Assembly: GCF_020833685.1 (NCBI RefSeq)
Contig: NZ_JACKZY010000003.1
Location: 1 to 64,000, forward strand
DNA from: Nitratireductor sp. B36
GTDB lineage: Bacteria; Pseudomonadota; Alphaproteobacteria; Rhizobiales; Rhizobiaceae
Direction: 5' to 3'
DNA: 64,000 bases
The notes under the pieces are model-generated. The model made no database searches. It was not told where the DNA came from and saw only the letters and a list, made by a program, of their open reading frames with translations. The number at the start of each line of letters is the position of its first letter. The first letter of the stretch is position 1. Positions 57,980 to 64,000 of this stretch are shown piece by piece. The translations under genes and the position numbers were made by a program.

Positions 57980-58675
57980 TTGGACAGCACGGACACGCCG
58001 CAGATTGCAGAAGCGCGCCCCTCGACGAGGGAGACGGTCAGCCTGTGCCCTGCTCATTTCGATGCCCTGTTCAGCCAGTGCCGGCCCGAACGCTACAAGG
58101 CGGGCGACTATCTCTTCATGCATGAGGATCCGGCCGATCGGATCTACGGCGTTCTTTCGGGCACGGTGGAGATCTCCAGCTATTCCATCAGCGGTCGGAA
58201 ACTGGTTGCCAATATTGAGCTTTCACGCAGTCTCATCGGCGAAATCGGGGCCCTTGACGGAGGTGTCAGAACCGCAAGCGCCATCTGCCTGACCGACTGC
58301 GCGCTGGTGTCGCTGAGCCGCGCGCAACTGATGCGGAAGCTGGCGGAAGATGCCTCCTTGTCGCTGGCGATGATCGAGCTCCTGTGCGCGCGATTGCGAT
58401 GGATCAGCAATGAGCGCAATGACCAGGCGCTGCTGAAGGTGGAGGCGCGGCTTGCCAAGCGCCTCCTGCTTCTCGATGACAGGATTGCCGGAGCTGGCGG
58501 TTGGATCGGGATTTCCCAATCCGAGCTTGCCGCCTTCCTCGGCGCAACCCGCGAATCTGTCAACAAGATGCTCAACACATGGCGCAGCGAGAACCTGATC
58601 GCGATCAGGCGTGGCGCCATAAGACTGATCTCCAGGACGGGTCTGCAGGAAATCGTCCACCTGGAGGACGACTGA
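57980..58675 (+). CDS. Crp/Fnr-family transcriptional regulator
   Basis: This protein of up to 231 aa has an N-terminal cyclic-nucleotide-binding beta-roll (DYLFMHEDPADRIYGVLSGTVEI; GEIGALDGGVRTASA is the phosphate-binding-cassette region) and a C-terminal winged helix (ISQSELAAFLGATRESVNKMLNTW). No N-terminal Fnr cysteines are seen, so it is unlikely to be an oxygen sensor. A stop lies 9 bases upstream of the TTG at 57980 and the next Met is at residue 47, so a TTG start is probable. It converges on the P450-peroxidase gene, ending on the adjacent base. Confidence 0.83.
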   Translation: MDSTDTPQIAEARPSTRETVSLCPAHFDALFSQCRPERYKAGDYLFMHEDPADRIYGVLSGTVEISSYSISGRKLVANIELSRSLIGEIGALDGGVRTASAICLTDCALVSLSRAQLMRKLAEDASLSLAMIELLCARLRWISNERNDQALLKVEARLAKRLLLLDDRIAGAGGWIGISQSELAAFLGATRESVNKMLNTWRSENLIAIRRGAIRLISRTGLQEIVHLEDD

Positions 58676-61600
58676 TCACAAGCGAGACAGAAGGTAGCGC
58701 AGGCTCGAGCGGCTGGGCATGAAGAAATAGCCGCCGCCGCGCGTTGTCACGAAGCTTGGCAAATCACGCAGAATCAGCCGCCCTTCATCTGTCGGGATGG
58801 AGAAACTGCCCTTCCCCTCATTGGCGCCGATGGTCGGATCCTTCTCGTCCGTCAGCCCCTGAAAGAAGGATGACGACACCCAGCTTTGCTGCATGAATTC
58901 GTATTGCCGCTCGATATCGGCATTGAGGCACATGAAAAGCAGGCCCGCTTCCTGACCGTCTTTATAGGTTCGGCCACAACGCAGGATGCGATGGCGGTTG
59001 TTGATCCTGAGCTGGGTTTCGGGATCGTCACCCAGCGAGTCTCTCGGGTTCGAACGGCGCACATGAGAGCCCAGCGGACAATAGAGCCCCTGCGGGTCCT
59101 CTGCGGCGAAGGTGAAATCATTGTCCGGCTCGCGATCCGAGCGGCCATTTGGATTGCGCACCAGCGAGGTTCCGTCCTGCCAGCGCCCGACCATCTTGGC
59201 TGCGATCCATTTCGATTCGATCGTGGCATTGCCTGTCTCGGTGCGCACCATCTCGGCAGCATGCCGGCAATAGGTGTTAAAGGTCGAGACATGCTGCTCG
59301 AGCTGACGGATCACCATGAAACTGCCATTGCGCCCGAAGTCACGCATGGTTGCCTTCTTGCCAAAGAGCGGCGCTTCTGCTCCCGTTTCCAGCACCGGAA
59401 GTATGCCTTTGCTGTCTTCGGCCTCGGTTATGGTTGGGGAGGACGGATAGAAATTGTTTTCATCCCGATAGCCAAGCACGAATTCGCCGGGGGCGATGAG
59501 GTGCATGGATGAGGTGTTCCCATTTGCACGCGGCGTGCCCCGCACAATGGGCTGCGATATGCCGTCGGCAAAACCGAAATGCTCGACGGCATGCCTGCCC
59601 TCTCTCCTGATCTCGAGCGGTAGCTGCGCAACGCGCCGCACGCCGGCTTTGTCCGTTGCATGCAGCAGGGACTGGATGTCCGCGTCCAGTGTTTCATAGC
59701 TGCGCGCATAGCAGATGACAGCCACATCGACCGGCTTCTCCTGCGAGCCCCAGGCCCAGCGCTCCGGCGCGCTCTTGCCGATATCGTCGAGAACGCGGCT
59801 GCGCGCCTCAGTCGCCATGCCCTGTCGAAAGGCCGCCGGAAATCCGTCCAGACGATCATCGCCCGGACGCTCCCCCAGGCCCAGCCGTCTCAGCCCACCC
59901 GGCCCAAGAAGGGTGATCATGGCCCGCTCGGGCGGAAGCTGATTGCCGAAACTGGTGCGTTCCAGCAAAAACGCCAACCACTCCCGCCGCGCAGCACGCG
60001 ACAGGTCCGCCGGGATATGGAAAGCGATCATTTCCGCCTTTGCGAGCGGGCCAAGGGGGCCGAAGAAGATCGACTGAATCTCCTCCGTTTCAAGCATATC
60101 GCGCGGGCGCGGTTGCGAACCGAAGAGGCGGAGCCAGTCGCGCGCTTCGCTTTCGGTTTCCGCTTTCGCTATCCCATCGCGGATCAGCGAATTGATGCGG
60201 ATGCGGCTGGTGGTGAGGCCGGGATAGGCCGCATACCAAAAGAGCGTCGGCACCTGCTGCGCCCGTGCCCAGCGCTTGAACCGGTCGCCATCGGTCGCCC
60301 CGTCGAAAAACAGCATGCGCGTTTTTGGAAAGCCTGCCGTATTGCTCCAGACCCCTGTCAGACCGGCATGGGCCTTGGTGATGAAATCCTCCAGATAACT
60401 CTCCCAGCTGCCGCCATAATTGCTCAGGAAGACAAGCTGTTTCGTCCCGGGCAGGAGCACCCAGCGGGCGAAGTGGATCGTGTTGATGTCGGCGAGGTAT
60501 CCGGGCCGAAACACCTGCCGCGCCATGATCGAGATCAGGTAGAAGGAGAGCCGGAGCGAAAGACGCCTCAGCCAGCCTCCCTTCAGCGTCGACACGGCCG
60601 TCAGGTGATTTTGCGCCAGGTGGTTCTCGCGCTTTGCGATCTCTTCCAGTAGCGCCAGGTCCGCGTTCCTGTCGCTCGGAACATCACGTTTTTCAAGGTG
60701 CCGCAGATAGAGGGTCAGAAGCCCGCCGATGAAAGCAAGCAGCATTGTGACACCGATCAGGGTGAGCACGATGGAGGTGCCGACGATCAGCAGATTGCGA
60801 AAGAAGCCGGGTGCGTATCCGAACACCAGCGAATAGGTGATGGCGAGGCAGATGAGGAGCGTGACGGTGACCGTCACCAGAACCTTCGGCGCTCGCAATG
60901 TTCGCTTCACCGCGCTGGCAACACTGCCTGCTGGTTTTTCCAGAAGCGTTTCGGCGGGCTCAAATGCCCAGTCGAAGCGCCCTTCGCTCGTGAGCTTCTG
61001 CCTTACCCGATCAAGAATTGCACCGGCCTCGGCCCCCTTGGGCGCCGCTGCGATTTCCCCACGCGCGGCCTCTTCAAGTTCCGCTTCCGCCCGAATGCGA
61101 CGGACAGAGTGGCCGGGGGTCCCCGAGAATACGAGGCCGGCATCGCTGCCGAAAGTCGGAGAGATATCCAGTGCGCTCTCACGGATCAGCACGCCGGCAG
61201 GCCGGTGTTCGGTCGTTCCGCATGCCATGGCAAGGAGATCGCGCAACACGGGTTCGGTGGCGCTCACAAAGGCATCCACGACATCGCCTTTCGTGCCGTC
61301 GCCCGACAGTTCAATAACCAGATGGCCGGCGCTGCTCGCCGCCTCATCGCCCTGCCCGTCGATAACGGCGATGCTGGCGAAGTGAATTACGCCGCTTTCG
61401 TCCAGCGCGCGCTTCATCGCCTCTCCCGCCGGATTGCCGAGCGCGTCGACCTTCGCGCGCAAGGCATCCATCGGGGTATCCCTGGCGCAGGGGATCACCG
61501 CCGTTACCATGGCGTGTTCGACCGTCCTTGAAAGCGGGGCGGGATCAAAGCAGACCGTCAGACTTTCCGGATAGGCGCCGAGGCGTCTCAAGCGCCCATC

Positions 61601-62839
61601 TTTGCCGTCGGCGCGATGCAATCCGGGCTTTGAGAACAATGCACGAAAGCACTCGGCAATCTGAATCCGGGCTATCGCCGCACCGATGCATTGGTGAATA
61701 CCGTGACCGAAGACCATGTAGTCCCGCGCGGGCCGCTCCATGTCGAAGCGCTCCGGTTCACGCACCGCCGCAGGATCGAACATGGCCGAGAGTGTCGCCG
61801 GCATCACGGTTGTGCCCGCTTTTATCTTCCGTTCCCGGCGTGTCCCTTTGGCGATCACCGCATCGCGCGCCGTGTAGCGGAACGGGCCGACCCAGATAGG
61901 CTTGAAGCGCATCGCCTCGAGGAGGGCGCGTTCGAGACGCGCATTGTCGCCGGCTGCAATTGCCTCTTCCACTGCCCGGCGCGCCTCGGGCTTGGAAAGC
62001 ACGACATCCAGGCAATTGCCACTCGCCAGGAGATTGGTGGGCGTAAAGCCGGCAATCATGCCCAGCATGATCGCGTGGACCTCGCCGAGGCTGATTTGCG
62101 GGTCTTCCGCATCGAGCATCGCGACCAACCGCCCAAGCGGTGTGGCGCCTGCCACGGCGCCCTCACGCACCGCCATGATCGACAGATCGATGACCTGTCG
62201 TACGCGGTCAGCGGCCACCACGGCCAGTTCCCTTGTCACCGGATCAGCGCCGGGATCGGCGAAAAACAATCCGCTCAAAGCGTTGGCCCAATTGGAAAAG
62301 GCCTCTTCATCGTCAACGAGAATGCCAAAATAATCGCGGCAGATGCGGACGGGAACCACACGCAGCAGCCCGGCGACCGCATCGAAACGCGGGGCAGCGC
62401 GTTGCATGATGGCCGAAGCGTGCCGTGCCGCCATAGGGCGTACGACCTCTTCGACCTCGTCCACCGGAAAGGCCGACAGCACGGCCGATTTCATGCGCCG
62501 GTATTCCGGACCGTCCTGCATGCCGAGAATGAAGTTGGTTCCCCCCGCGATCTCCGCCATTTCGAGACCATAGGGAGTTTGGAACACGTCCTGACGCTCG
62601 AGAATTTCGCGCACATCCTCGCTGCGCGTAACGAGAACGAGACTCCCAAACTTCAGAATCGGATGAAACCGTCGTAACAGACCGAGCGCCCAGCGGGGGT
62701 TCTCAAGAAGGCGGCTGGTGAGCCTGGCGCGCCAACCCTTCGCACGGATCCGCTTGATGTCGAATGGCGGCATGTCGGCTACAGGCCCCTGAGCGCGTTG
62801 CGCCTCGCGCACACCATCGAAATACTTAGTCGTCGCCAT
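58676..62839 (-). CDS. cytochrome P450 - membrane segment - DyP-type peroxidase fusion
   Basis: The frame encodes 1387 aa with no break. Residues 1-435 are a bacterial-type P450: ExxR (E308-R311) and heme-thiolate loop FGHGIHQCIG with Cys384. The I-helix reads AGFTPT (263-268), lacking the usual acid and threonine. Residues 440-540 hold a module with IHFASIAVIDG. Two membrane spans lie near 650-673 and 681-711. A related module (IHFARWVLLPG, LVFLSNYGGSWESYL) spans about 787-845. Residues 920-1385 match DyP peroxidases: GFADG with distal Asp1092, proximal heme ligand His1259 in CPLGSHVRRSNPR, and the HRILRCG arginine. ATG 62839 follows GGGGAG. Two hemes on one membrane-bound chain are predicted. 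Confidence 0.87.
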   Translation of the reverse strand: MATTKYFDGVREAQRAQGPVADMPPFDIKRIRAKGWRARLTSRLLENPRWALGLLRRFHPILKFGSLVLVTRSEDVREILERQDVFQTPYGLEMAEIAGGTNFILGMQDGPEYRRMKSAVLSAFPVDEVEEVVRPMAARHASAIMQRAAPRFDAVAGLLRVVPVRICRDYFGILVDDEEAFSNWANALSGLFFADPGADPVTRELAVVAADRVRQVIDLSIMAVREGAVAGATPLGRLVAMLDAEDPQISLGEVHAIMLGMIAGFTPTNLLASGNCLDVVLSKPEARRAVEEAIAAGDNARLERALLEAMRFKPIWVGPFRYTARDAVIAKGTRRERKIKAGTTVMPATLSAMFDPAAVREPERFDMERPARDYMVFGHGIHQCIGAAIARIQIAECFRALFSKPGLHRADGKDGRLRRLGAYPESLTVCFDPAPLSRTVEHAMVTAVIPCARDTPMDALRAKVDALGNPAGEAMKRALDESGVIHFASIAVIDGQGDEAASSAGHLVIELSGDGTKGDVVDAFVSATEPVLRDLLAMACGTTEHRPAGVLIRESALDISPTFGSDAGLVFSGTPGHSVRRIRAEAELEEAARGEIAAAPKGAEAGAILDRVRQKLTSEGRFDWAFEPAETLLEKPAGSVASAVKRTLRAPKVLVTVTVTLLICLAITYSLVFGYAPGFFRNLLIVGTSIVLTLIGVTMLLAFIGGLLTLYLRHLEKRDVPSDRNADLALLEEIAKRENHLAQNHLTAVSTLKGGWLRRLSLRLSFYLISIMARQVFRPGYLADINTIHFARWVLLPGTKQLVFLSNYGGSWESYLEDFITKAHAGLTGVWSNTAGFPKTRMLFFDGATDGDRFKRWARAQQVPTLFWYAAYPGLTTSRIRINSLIRDGIAKAETESEARDWLRLFGSQPRPRDMLETEEIQSIFFGPLGPLAKAEMIAFHIPADLSRAARREWLAFLLERTSFGNQLPPERAMITLLGPGGLRRLGLGERPGDDRLDGFPAAFRQGMATEARSRVLDDIGKSAPERWAWGSQEKPVDVAVICYARSYETLDADIQSLLHATDKAGVRRVAQLPLEIRREGRHAVEHFGFADGISQPIVRGTPRANGNTSSMHLIAPGEFVLGYRDENNFYPSSPTITEAEDSKGILPVLETGAEAPLFGKKATMRDFGRNGSFMVIRQLEQHVSTFNTYCRHAAEMVRTETGNATIESKWIAAKMVGRWQDGTSLVRNPNGRSDREPDNDFTFAAEDPQGLYCPLGSHVRRSNPRDSLGDDPETQLRINNRHRILRCGRTYKDGQEAGLLFMCLNADIERQYEFMQQSWVSSSFFQGLTDEKDPTIGANEGKGSFSIPTDEGRLILRDLPSFVTTRGGGYFFMPSRSSLRYLLSRL

Positions 62840-62899
62840 TGCGCTCCCCTCGGACAGCAAAAGCCTACGCGTGAAAGGGTGGGCCGTGTGTGAAGCAGT

Positions 62900-64000
62900 T
62901 CACGCAGGGCCAGCTTCGATCGCGCCTCCGTTCTGATCAGCCAGACTGAAGTTGCTGATGAGAAAAGCGGTCGCAGATTTCTCCGCGAAGGGGATCCATG
63001 CGACGCGATCAAGTGAGAAATCGGGATGATAGGCGTGGAAGAGCGCTTTCTCGCGTCGTGCCTCTTCCACCCGATTGCTGCGCATCAGCGCCCCTATCTT
63101 AAGAAACCGCGCGTAAAAATAGCGCGGCGAGAGACCAAGTGAGGCCTCGGCCGCGGCAATGGCGTCATCCCATTGCTCCTCAAAACAACAGGCGGCGGCG
63201 AGTTCTCCGAGATTATGGAAACCGTAAATGTCGAACGGACTGAGCTGTCGTGCCGTTTTGAAGAGGGGGATAGCCTTACGTGCCTCCCCCAAAAGCAGAT
63301 AGGCGCTGCCCATCGCCGAATGCGCAAAGGCGAAACTGGGGTTGATCTGCAGTGCTTCATGCAGGTGCTCGATTGCCGCTTTCGGCTGTCCACGCATGAT
63401 CGCGACCGCGCCAAGATGCGCGTGAGGGCGTGCGTCCTGGCTGTCCATCAAGAGCGATCTGCGGGAGAAATCCGTCACCTTATCGAGATCATCGCCGGCT
63501 CCAGAGCGTAACCAGCCCCGCCAGAAATACCACCATGCCAGTTCGTTGAGTACGGCGCTGGAGTTGGGAGCCTTTCGACTCGCTTCGCCAAGACAGTCAA
63601 GGGCCAGCGCTGTGTCTTCGCGTGAGCGACGCTGCATGTGCCAGCGCGCGCGTCGCACAAGCTGCCACGTTTCGAGGCTTTCCCAAGGAACCTGAAAGGT
63701 GCGCGCCTGCTCCACCCTCTCAACCTCCTTTTCCAACATCGAAACGATTTGGCCGCCGATCTCATCGTTGATCAGTGAAACCTCGTCGAGCGGTCGGCGG
63801 AAGCCGCGCGACCAGACCAGTCTTTCGTTCGCTGCGTCGGTTAACGTTATGACGAGATCGAAATAGCCGCTCGCGCGTGCGAGCCTGCCATCGACAAGAT
63901 AGCGCGCGCCAAGCGCACTTCCGGTCTTGCGCGCACCCAGTGTCTTGTCTCTGAATTGAAAGCTCGACTCCCGCGCGATCACCGGCAGCCAGCGTGTGCT
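62900..64000 (-). CDS. TolB-like/TPR-domain protein, 3' part only (possible adenylate cyclase)
   Basis: The frame is open through the right edge, so the N-terminus is missing. The visible 366 residues begin with the TolB/FlgO-like domain common in these proteins (WLPVIARESSFQFR, LGARYLVDGRLARASGYFDL, ANERLVWSRGFRRPLDE). TPR repeats follow, with ALQINPSFAFAHSAMGSAYL the clearest. In rhizobia this arrangement is typical of class III adenylate cyclases and of CadC-like regulators, whose catalytic or DNA-binding domain would lie beyond base 64000. It is 60 bases upstream of the P450-peroxidase gene on the same strand. Confidence 0.8.
   Translation of the reverse strand, partial: STRWLPVIARESSFQFRDKTLGARKTGSALGARYLVDGRLARASGYFDLVITLTDAANERLVWSRGFRRPLDEVSLINDEIGGQIVSMLEKEVERVEQARTFQVPWESLETWQLVRRARWHMQRRSREDTALALDCLGEASRKAPNSSAVLNELAWWYFWRGWLRSGAGDDLDKVTDFSRRSLLMDSQDARPHAHLGAVAIMRGQPKAAIEHLHEALQINPSFAFAHSAMGSAYLLLGEARKAIPLFKTARQLSPFDIYGFHNLGELAAACCFEEQWDDAIAAAEASLGLSPRYFYARFLKIGALMRSNRVEEARREKALFHAYHPDFSLDRVAWIPFAEKSATAFLISNFSLADQNGGAIEAGPA

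Follow-up and report, generated by a model that had tools for sequence, protein, structure and literature searches.

A single gene in a 64,000-nucleotide stretch of the Nitratireductor sp. B36 genome (contig NZ_JACKZY010000003.1, positions 1 to 64,000; hereafter the window) encodes a protein that carries both a cytochrome P450 and a DyP-type peroxidase. The frame is unbroken over 1387 residues, and its domain order is P450, X1, a two-span membrane hairpin, X2 and DyP. X denotes a domain family without a Pfam match, of which two copies, X1 and X2, fill the region between the heme domains. Judged by gene content and sequence similarity, the fusion is the single-chain version of a wider module that consists of a P450 or a catalase-related protein, X proteins and a DyP, elsewhere encoded by adjacent genes. 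With a rough probability of 0.42, the product is a membrane two-heme enzyme that carries out peroxide chemistry on a hydrophobic, lipid-class substrate, its cytoplasmic heme domains acting in turn. The module ties two large heme families, hitherto studied apart, into one conserved bacterial unit, and the swap between P450 and catalase-related partners makes their common chemistry testable. The physiological roles of DyP peroxidases are for the most part unsettled, and the module gives these enzymes a concrete genetic setting.

One chain with two heme domains

The fusion gene occupies positions 58676..62839 of the minus strand (1387 codons and a stop), as do all its domains. The start is an ATG at 62839, and an in-frame TTG lies at 62860. 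The P450 domain (residues 1-432; 61544..62839) is recognized by Pfam p450, a structure model and a fold match, and the DyP domain (residues 913-1387; 58679..60103) by Pfam, family models and a fold search. Between them lie X1 (residues 440-640; 60920..61522), the hairpin (residues ~647-715; 60695..60901), which appears in hydropathy and as long helices in the model, and X2 (residues 738-905; 60125..60628). A first-pass annotation made from the letters alone had proposed a single-chain bacterial P450-DyP protein, anchored by two membrane spans within a join of about 480 residues. Both families are matched by Pfam in the one uninterrupted frame and the two spans stand; the two X domains, which also belong to the joining region, had been overlooked, as had the cyclase and Crp-type genes on either side and the wider module, in which a catalase-related protein can take the place of the P450. 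Since basic residues flank both hairpin ends and there is no further hydrophobic segment, both ends, and hence both heme domains, would face the cytoplasm beside the inner membrane. Homologues are automatically annotated as 'cytochrome P450' or 'Dyp-type peroxidase domain-containing protein'.

Scanning named genomes turned up 424 confirmed loci, of which the best 80 serve for the analyses of the fused form. The catalytic residues of both domains are invariant among them, in line with the two heme sites suggested earlier, which we regard as probable. In the P450 domain, the heme-ligand Cys384 (codon at 61688..61690) and the ExxR residues Glu308 and Arg311 are kept in all 79 rows of the 80-row alignment that have a letter there. 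Together with the fold and the Cys loop, they place the domain in the cytochrome P450 superfamily. In the DyP domain, the distal Asp1092 of the GFADG motif (59564..59566), the proximal His1259 (59063..59065) and the distal Arg1287 (58979..58981) are present in 80/80 rows. The DyP fold, the GxxDG Asp, the proximal His and the distal Arg place this domain in the DyP superfamily, with a TIGR01413 score below that model's curated cut-off. Its nearest solved chain is the Deinococcus DyP 8re2.

The P450 I-helix departs from the canonical pattern for O2 activation, an acid followed by Thr. Its motif is AGFTPT (residues 263-268; 62036..62053), which has no acidic residue in either register. Gly264, Phe265, Pro267 and Thr268 are invariant in 78/78 rows with a letter, and the acid is absent from positions 266 and 267 in the same 78 rows. 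It is absent from 27 of 28 DyP-associated P450s as well (Pro in 25, Ala in 1, Gly in 1), whereas Glu or Asp stands there in 10/10 generic P450s from related genomes. In two MAFFT modes, Pro267 aligns with the acid and Thr268 with the threonine, and HMMER pairwise alignment shifts this by one residue. The MAFFT register is favored by the GAVDTT motif of one DyP-associated P450 (L156), and of the alignment only the absence of the acid is safe. A CYP152-like Arg-Pro-Thr reading of the I-helix was dropped because the two registers differ and GAVDTT favors that of MAFFT.

These residues also bear on another reading, in which an ordinary monooxygenase and a peroxidase together serve a single step in the biosynthesis or breakdown of a compound other than a lipid, and O2 and unlinked redox partners drive the P450. 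In its favor, the usual threonine of the I-helix may be Thr268, and the nearest folds of the P450 domain, among the matches listed, are ordinary bacterial P450s. However, none of the 14 fused or split forms in the alignment has the acid. Open reading frames (ORFs) shorter than 160 residues at the 80 loci, scanned with a crude motif, gave no recurrent ferredoxin-like neighbor (nine matches were judged spurious), and no such family recurs among those listed for the neighbors of ten fusion loci. We consider this reading unlikely.

The first-pass annotation had named a sequencing error joining two genes as what would refute the fusion and had called for a survey of the architecture. The fused order recurs in independent assemblies. 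A full-length single ORF is present in 77/80 loci, and a script count of the order P450-X1-X2-DyP gives 78/80, a figure that includes a locus that is not full length. In this locus (L030:2-3540; L030/G004), from a draft of Nitratireductor aquibiodomus, the P450 start is missing and the frame is broken near the contig end, which may be a draft error. Among 60 related genomes, the whole protein is found in one open frame in seven, in pieces in G004, and as two adjacent genes separated by one stop in G050. Within the genus, 5/10 genomes, the window's own included, have the protein. Mesorhizobium is named in 56/80 locus titles, and the remaining titles include Nitratireductor, Chelativorans, Aquamicrobium, Pseudaminobacter, Aquibium and Zhengella. 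Eight plasmid records, from Pararhizobium, Novosphingobium and Sulfitobacter, cover at least 80% of the protein. The Sulfitobacter fusion (L023:7959-12860) has long additional insertions in its DyP part and reaches 1633 residues from the first start codon. The ratio of nonsynonymous to synonymous substitution rates (dN/dS) against three same-genus copies is 0.046-0.15 across every domain, with its minimum in X2, and by this measure purifying selection acts on all domains of the chain. An assembly artefact or a chance joining of two genes, for which nothing was found beyond the one broken draft frame, has a negligible probability in view of the full-length frames and the low dN/dS in each domain.

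A module of DyP, domain X and a second heme protein

Small proteins of ~160-240 residues encoded beside DyP genes match X2 and one another, and those submitted to Pfam matched no family. A profile (A4) was built from 22 sequences, namely five X2 segments, the window's included, and 17 small X proteins. X1 was not among them, and A4 matches X1 with 97.2% probability (E 4.6e-11). Compared directly through fusion-only profiles, X1 and X2 show no significant match (2.1% probability, E 0.023), and their kinship rests on the wider A4 profile. Profile comparison gave no significant match of X to either half of DyP, and X2 alone matched nothing in the PDB by sequence at E≤1. The best of five PDB matches for A4, oligogalacturonate lyase 3pe7 (0.0067, 34 positions), was taken as chance. 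In the structure model, the secondary structure of X1 and X2 is predicted to run b-a-b-b-a-b. We read this order as that of ferredoxin-like folds; the fold-search matches covered the DyP part only. X is a domain family and, from the dN/dS of X2, the most constrained part of the protein.

The module was followed in 56 loci, each place being counted once; L201, which repeats the L164 place, was dropped. A P450 or a catalase-related protein was counted as a partner if it lay within the DyP gene or at most 4 kb from it. X is matched in 53/56 loci, the exceptions being L157, L177 and L181. In 29 loci the partner is a P450 and in 10 it is catalase-related, either a gene or a fused domain; the other 17 have neither, and no locus has both. 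When fusions and finds made with the full-length query are removed, the remaining 40 loci give 13, 10 and 17, respectively. With kinship ignored, the chance of zero overlap under independence is 2.4e-4 for the 56 loci and 0.010 for the reduced set. One locus (L207) is scored as 'neither' by profile, though a Catalase-family gene (PF00199, 6e-23) comes after its X gene.

The P450 takes several arrangements around the same core. The single chain P450-X-X-DyP is also found in another class of the phylum (L198). P450 and X1-X2-DyP are two adjacent genes in Bradyrhizobium elkanii (L105) and form a two-gene pair in L183 as well. The gene order is X1-X2, DyP, P450 in L024, L155 and L166, and small X, X, DyP and P450 are separate genes in L161, L179 and L180. 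A reverse-order DyP-P450 chain occurs in L159. The divergent L157 has a part C-terminal to DyP that matches the P450 profile, and lacks an X match. In L160 (6926-10534), an X-DyP chain is followed by ~460 residues without a Pfam match at 1e-4, and a Cys-loop-like stretch near its end, judged by eye, suggests a very divergent P450.

In a tree, the DyP-associated P450s group in a single clade that excludes 10 generic P450s (support 100/100), and 12 fused P450s form one group (support 99/94), with long branches for L172, L159 and L015. Since members of this clade accompany one and the same X-DyP core, either as separate genes or in a reverse-order fusion, the functional link of the two heme domains that had been proposed is indirectly supported. 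A P450 at 29/56 loci, or 13/40 in the reduced set, compares with 0/11 at control DyP loci. These 11 loci, from 10 of 115 genomes of the class, show no X, P450 or catalase-related gene nearby. The controls were found with Dyp_perox_C at E≤1e-10, and only 2/11 match the wide DyP profile, so that they represent a different DyP class; five of the 11 stretches are under 10 kb. On the DyP tree (55 rows, all 56 loci minus L152), at least 5 changes are required for the catalase label and 12 for all labels together. These changes imply that partners were repeatedly swapped or lost. By these searches, the distribution of the module is sporadic. X2-DyP at E≤1e-15, a count that includes plain DyPs, was found in 11/385 genomes of the class and 28/398 of the phylum, and X at E≤1e-8 in 4/274 genomes of another class.

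Other genes occur beside X-DyP cores. On plasmids of Rhizobium leguminosarum (L025:380-13111) and R. sophoriradicis (L205:2269-9804), X1-X2-DyP lacks a P450; genes for a DNA/RNA non-specific endonuclease, an Exo_endo_phos protein and a heparin-lyase-like protein lie nearby. A cyanobacterial (L027:9356-10396) and a proteobacterial locus (L174:8210-9217) share a gene of ~340 codons without a Pfam match, and a RoxA-like cytochrome c gene (L168:4385-5779) adjoins an X-DyP pair. In Rhodococcus koreensis (L206), X and DyP are accompanied by a gene annotated 'catalase family protein'.

Gene neighborhood and proposed mechanism

Two regulatory genes flank the fusion. Upstream on the minus strand lies a gene for a 636-residue class III nucleotide cyclase-TPR protein (62900..64000, running past the window end; Guanylate_cyc 1.4e-7 and TPR). 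A convergent plus-strand gene (57980..58675) encodes a Crp-family regulator with cNMP_binding and HTH_Crp_2 domains. A neighbor test covered 79 loci, 78 fused (L030 included) and the split L105. A cyclase-TPR homologue lies within 300 nucleotides upstream on the same strand in 72 of the 75 loci with at least 2.5 kb upstream, and this homology may rest on the TPR part. Where 1.5 kb or more of downstream sequence is available, 73 of 78 loci have a convergent Crp-family gene. A match to the cyclase domain proper is seen in the window and in eight members among the neighbors of ten fusion loci, and some fused forms (L022, L023, L185, L165) have TPR regulators without a cyclase match. In the 56-locus set, a TPR regulator homologue accompanies 11/11 fused versus 0/45 non-fused loci, and a Crp homologue 5/11 versus 3/45. 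The fusion is probably expressed under the control of the cyclase-TPR and Crp-type genes. Immediately beyond the end of the window, a LuxR-like gene, recognized by eye (L208:7904-8683), diverges from the cyclase-TPR gene, and LuxR-type (GerE) proteins match 4/80 neighbors of ten fusion loci.

This synteny, with a TPR regulator restricted to fused loci in the 56-locus set, could also mean that the two heme domains are a sensor of O2, NO or peroxide that feeds the neighboring cyclase and the Crp protein. However, the complete catalytic residue sets are invariant, several fused lineages have a TPR regulator without a cyclase match, and regulators adjoining enzyme genes are commonplace. A sensor role is therefore improbable.

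For the enzyme reading, the fusion can be taken as a Rosetta stone: the module makes sense if both heme domains share a substrate or an intermediate. Three features favor peroxide chemistry on lipids: the I-helix lacks its acid, catalase-related proteins can replace the P450, and some operons contain lipases and FadL. In two closely similar clusters from two genomes of one genus (L167 and L170), the operon reads X, X, DyP, patatin, P450 and FadL-type protein. In L156, an LCAT-like lipase gene follows the P450. A GMC oxidoreductase and an alpha/beta hydrolase lie upstream in L162; a GMC oxidase is described as the proposed H2O2 source for an alkene-cleaving DyP (PMC7181223). In the mechanism we propose, the DyP heme would use H2O2 (or O2) to convert the substrate into a radical or a hydroperoxide. 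The P450, lacking the acid for normal O2 activation, would consume or rearrange the peroxide made by DyP. X1 and X2, close to the membrane, would keep either the substrate or the two heme domains in place. We infer the substrate, the heme content and this division of labor between domains.

Several observations weigh against it. Only two lineages, both without the fusion, have the lipid genes in their operons. A Pfam scan of 80 of the 94 ORFs at ten fusion loci found no lipase, patatin or FadL among the 25 of 90 families listed. Of the families listed, only TPR, cyclase, Crp/cNMP-binding, LuxR and one transporter family occur in at least three fusion neighbors. At non-fused loci, no Pfam family is found in more than 3 of 42 operon neighbors (one of 43, L166:10774-13977, was left out). 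Since no lipid family is listed beside the ten fusion loci, our confidence was lowered from 0.45 to 0.42, and the membrane-lipid substrate suggested by the first-pass annotation, to which the patatin, FadL and LCAT-like genes lend support, is at most suggestive. The P450 may keep a GxxxT threonine, depending on the register, and O2 activation may then be possible; the L156 P450 keeps an acid. Neither a P450 nor a catalase-related partner is found in 17/56 loci. The best match of the catalase-related partners is 3e4w (5e-10), followed by ordinary catalases (from 4e-7) and then coral AOS-LOX 1u5u (2.7e-6), and the usual His is absent from 3/9 aligned partners (L162, L169, L197). Because ordinary catalases outmatch the coral protein and the His is absent from these three, plain peroxide removal is possible.

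Such removal would be peroxide defense at the membrane. DyP would be the main peroxidase for H2O2 or lipid hydroperoxides, the P450 or catalase-related protein would take the excess, and the cyclase and Crp protein would provide stress control. The catalase-related partner, with a profile that also matches ordinary catalases, and the signaling neighbors would fit, and P450 and DyP are both peroxide-reactive. On the other hand, a P450 is an odd choice for disposing of peroxide, X and the hairpin are unnecessary for that role, and patatin, FadL and LCAT-like genes lie in the operons of two lineages. We regard defense as doubtful, though it deserves more weight than the monooxygenase or sensor readings.

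Plants, fungi and corals rearrange hydroperoxides with heme proteins of two fold classes, P450 and catalase-related. A bolder form of the two-heme enzyme reading is that the module is a third, bacterial machine that makes a hydroperoxide and then rearranges it. DyP would oxygenate a membrane lipid, the P450 or catalase-related protein would rearrange the product, X would be a new membrane-proximal substrate or scaffold family, and the second heme would have been swapped several times. In this full form, the proposal is speculative and rather unlikely.

Comparison with known two-heme systems

The published systems are compared here as the passages cited describe them. Fungal proteins of the Ppo or linoleate diol synthase type (CYP6001-CYP6005) join a heme oxygenase/peroxidase and a P450 in one chain (PMC5919972), as does oomycete CYP5619 (PMC9579011). 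The window protein resembles them in having a heme peroxidase-type domain and a P450 in a single chain. In those chains the P450 is paired with an animal-type (COX-like) heme peroxidase, whereas here its partner is DyP, of an unrelated fold, with two X domains and a membrane hairpin. As the first-pass annotation had held, the protein is unlike these or PGHS-like fusions: Pfam matches no animal-type heme peroxidase in it at E≤1. Coral AOS-LOX and HPL-LOX, fusions of a catalase-related domain and a lipoxygenase, couple a peroxide-making domain with a second heme domain, which rearranges the product (PMC5617202). The catalase-related partner that replaces P450 in the present module belongs to the same wide superfamily as their catalase-related domain. 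The window protein itself carries a P450, and neither a lipoxygenase nor a catalase-related domain (E≤1).

Altered I-helix acid/alcohol residues are also described for CYP152 peroxygenases (PMC10988616), and in CYP74 the I-helix GxxxT is changed to GxxxI/A/V (PMC1540422). CYP74 and the Ppo P450s are known in oxylipin or hydroperoxide chemistry (PMC1540422, PMC5919972), as are the coral AOS/HPL catalase-related proteins (PMC5617202). The fusion P450 shares the alteration and differs from both families in detail. OleT of CYP152 has Arg245, whereas the fusion motif is GxxPT without Arg, and no CYP152 chain is named among the structure matches listed (50 and 60 rows). Thr268 (or Pro267) stands where CYP74 has Ile, Ala or Val.

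The DyP domain resembles class V (C/D) DyPs in fold and catalytic residues and differs in sharing its chain with X, a membrane hairpin and a P450. Class V DyPs are described as oxidizing beta-carotene and carotenoids, some reportedly without H2O2 (PMC8197335). In the main text of that review, the terms 'P450', 'fusion', 'fused' and 'transmembrane' do not occur. The first-pass annotation knew of no characterized example, and the titles and abstract openings of the open-licence literature searched describe no P450-DyP fusion either. In our best reading, by analogy, the protein would work like the fungal Ppo or coral AOS-LOX fusions while being a member of neither. Two-heme P450 fusions are themselves known; what appears to be new among them is the fusion of P450 with DyP, and there is a fair chance that more is new.

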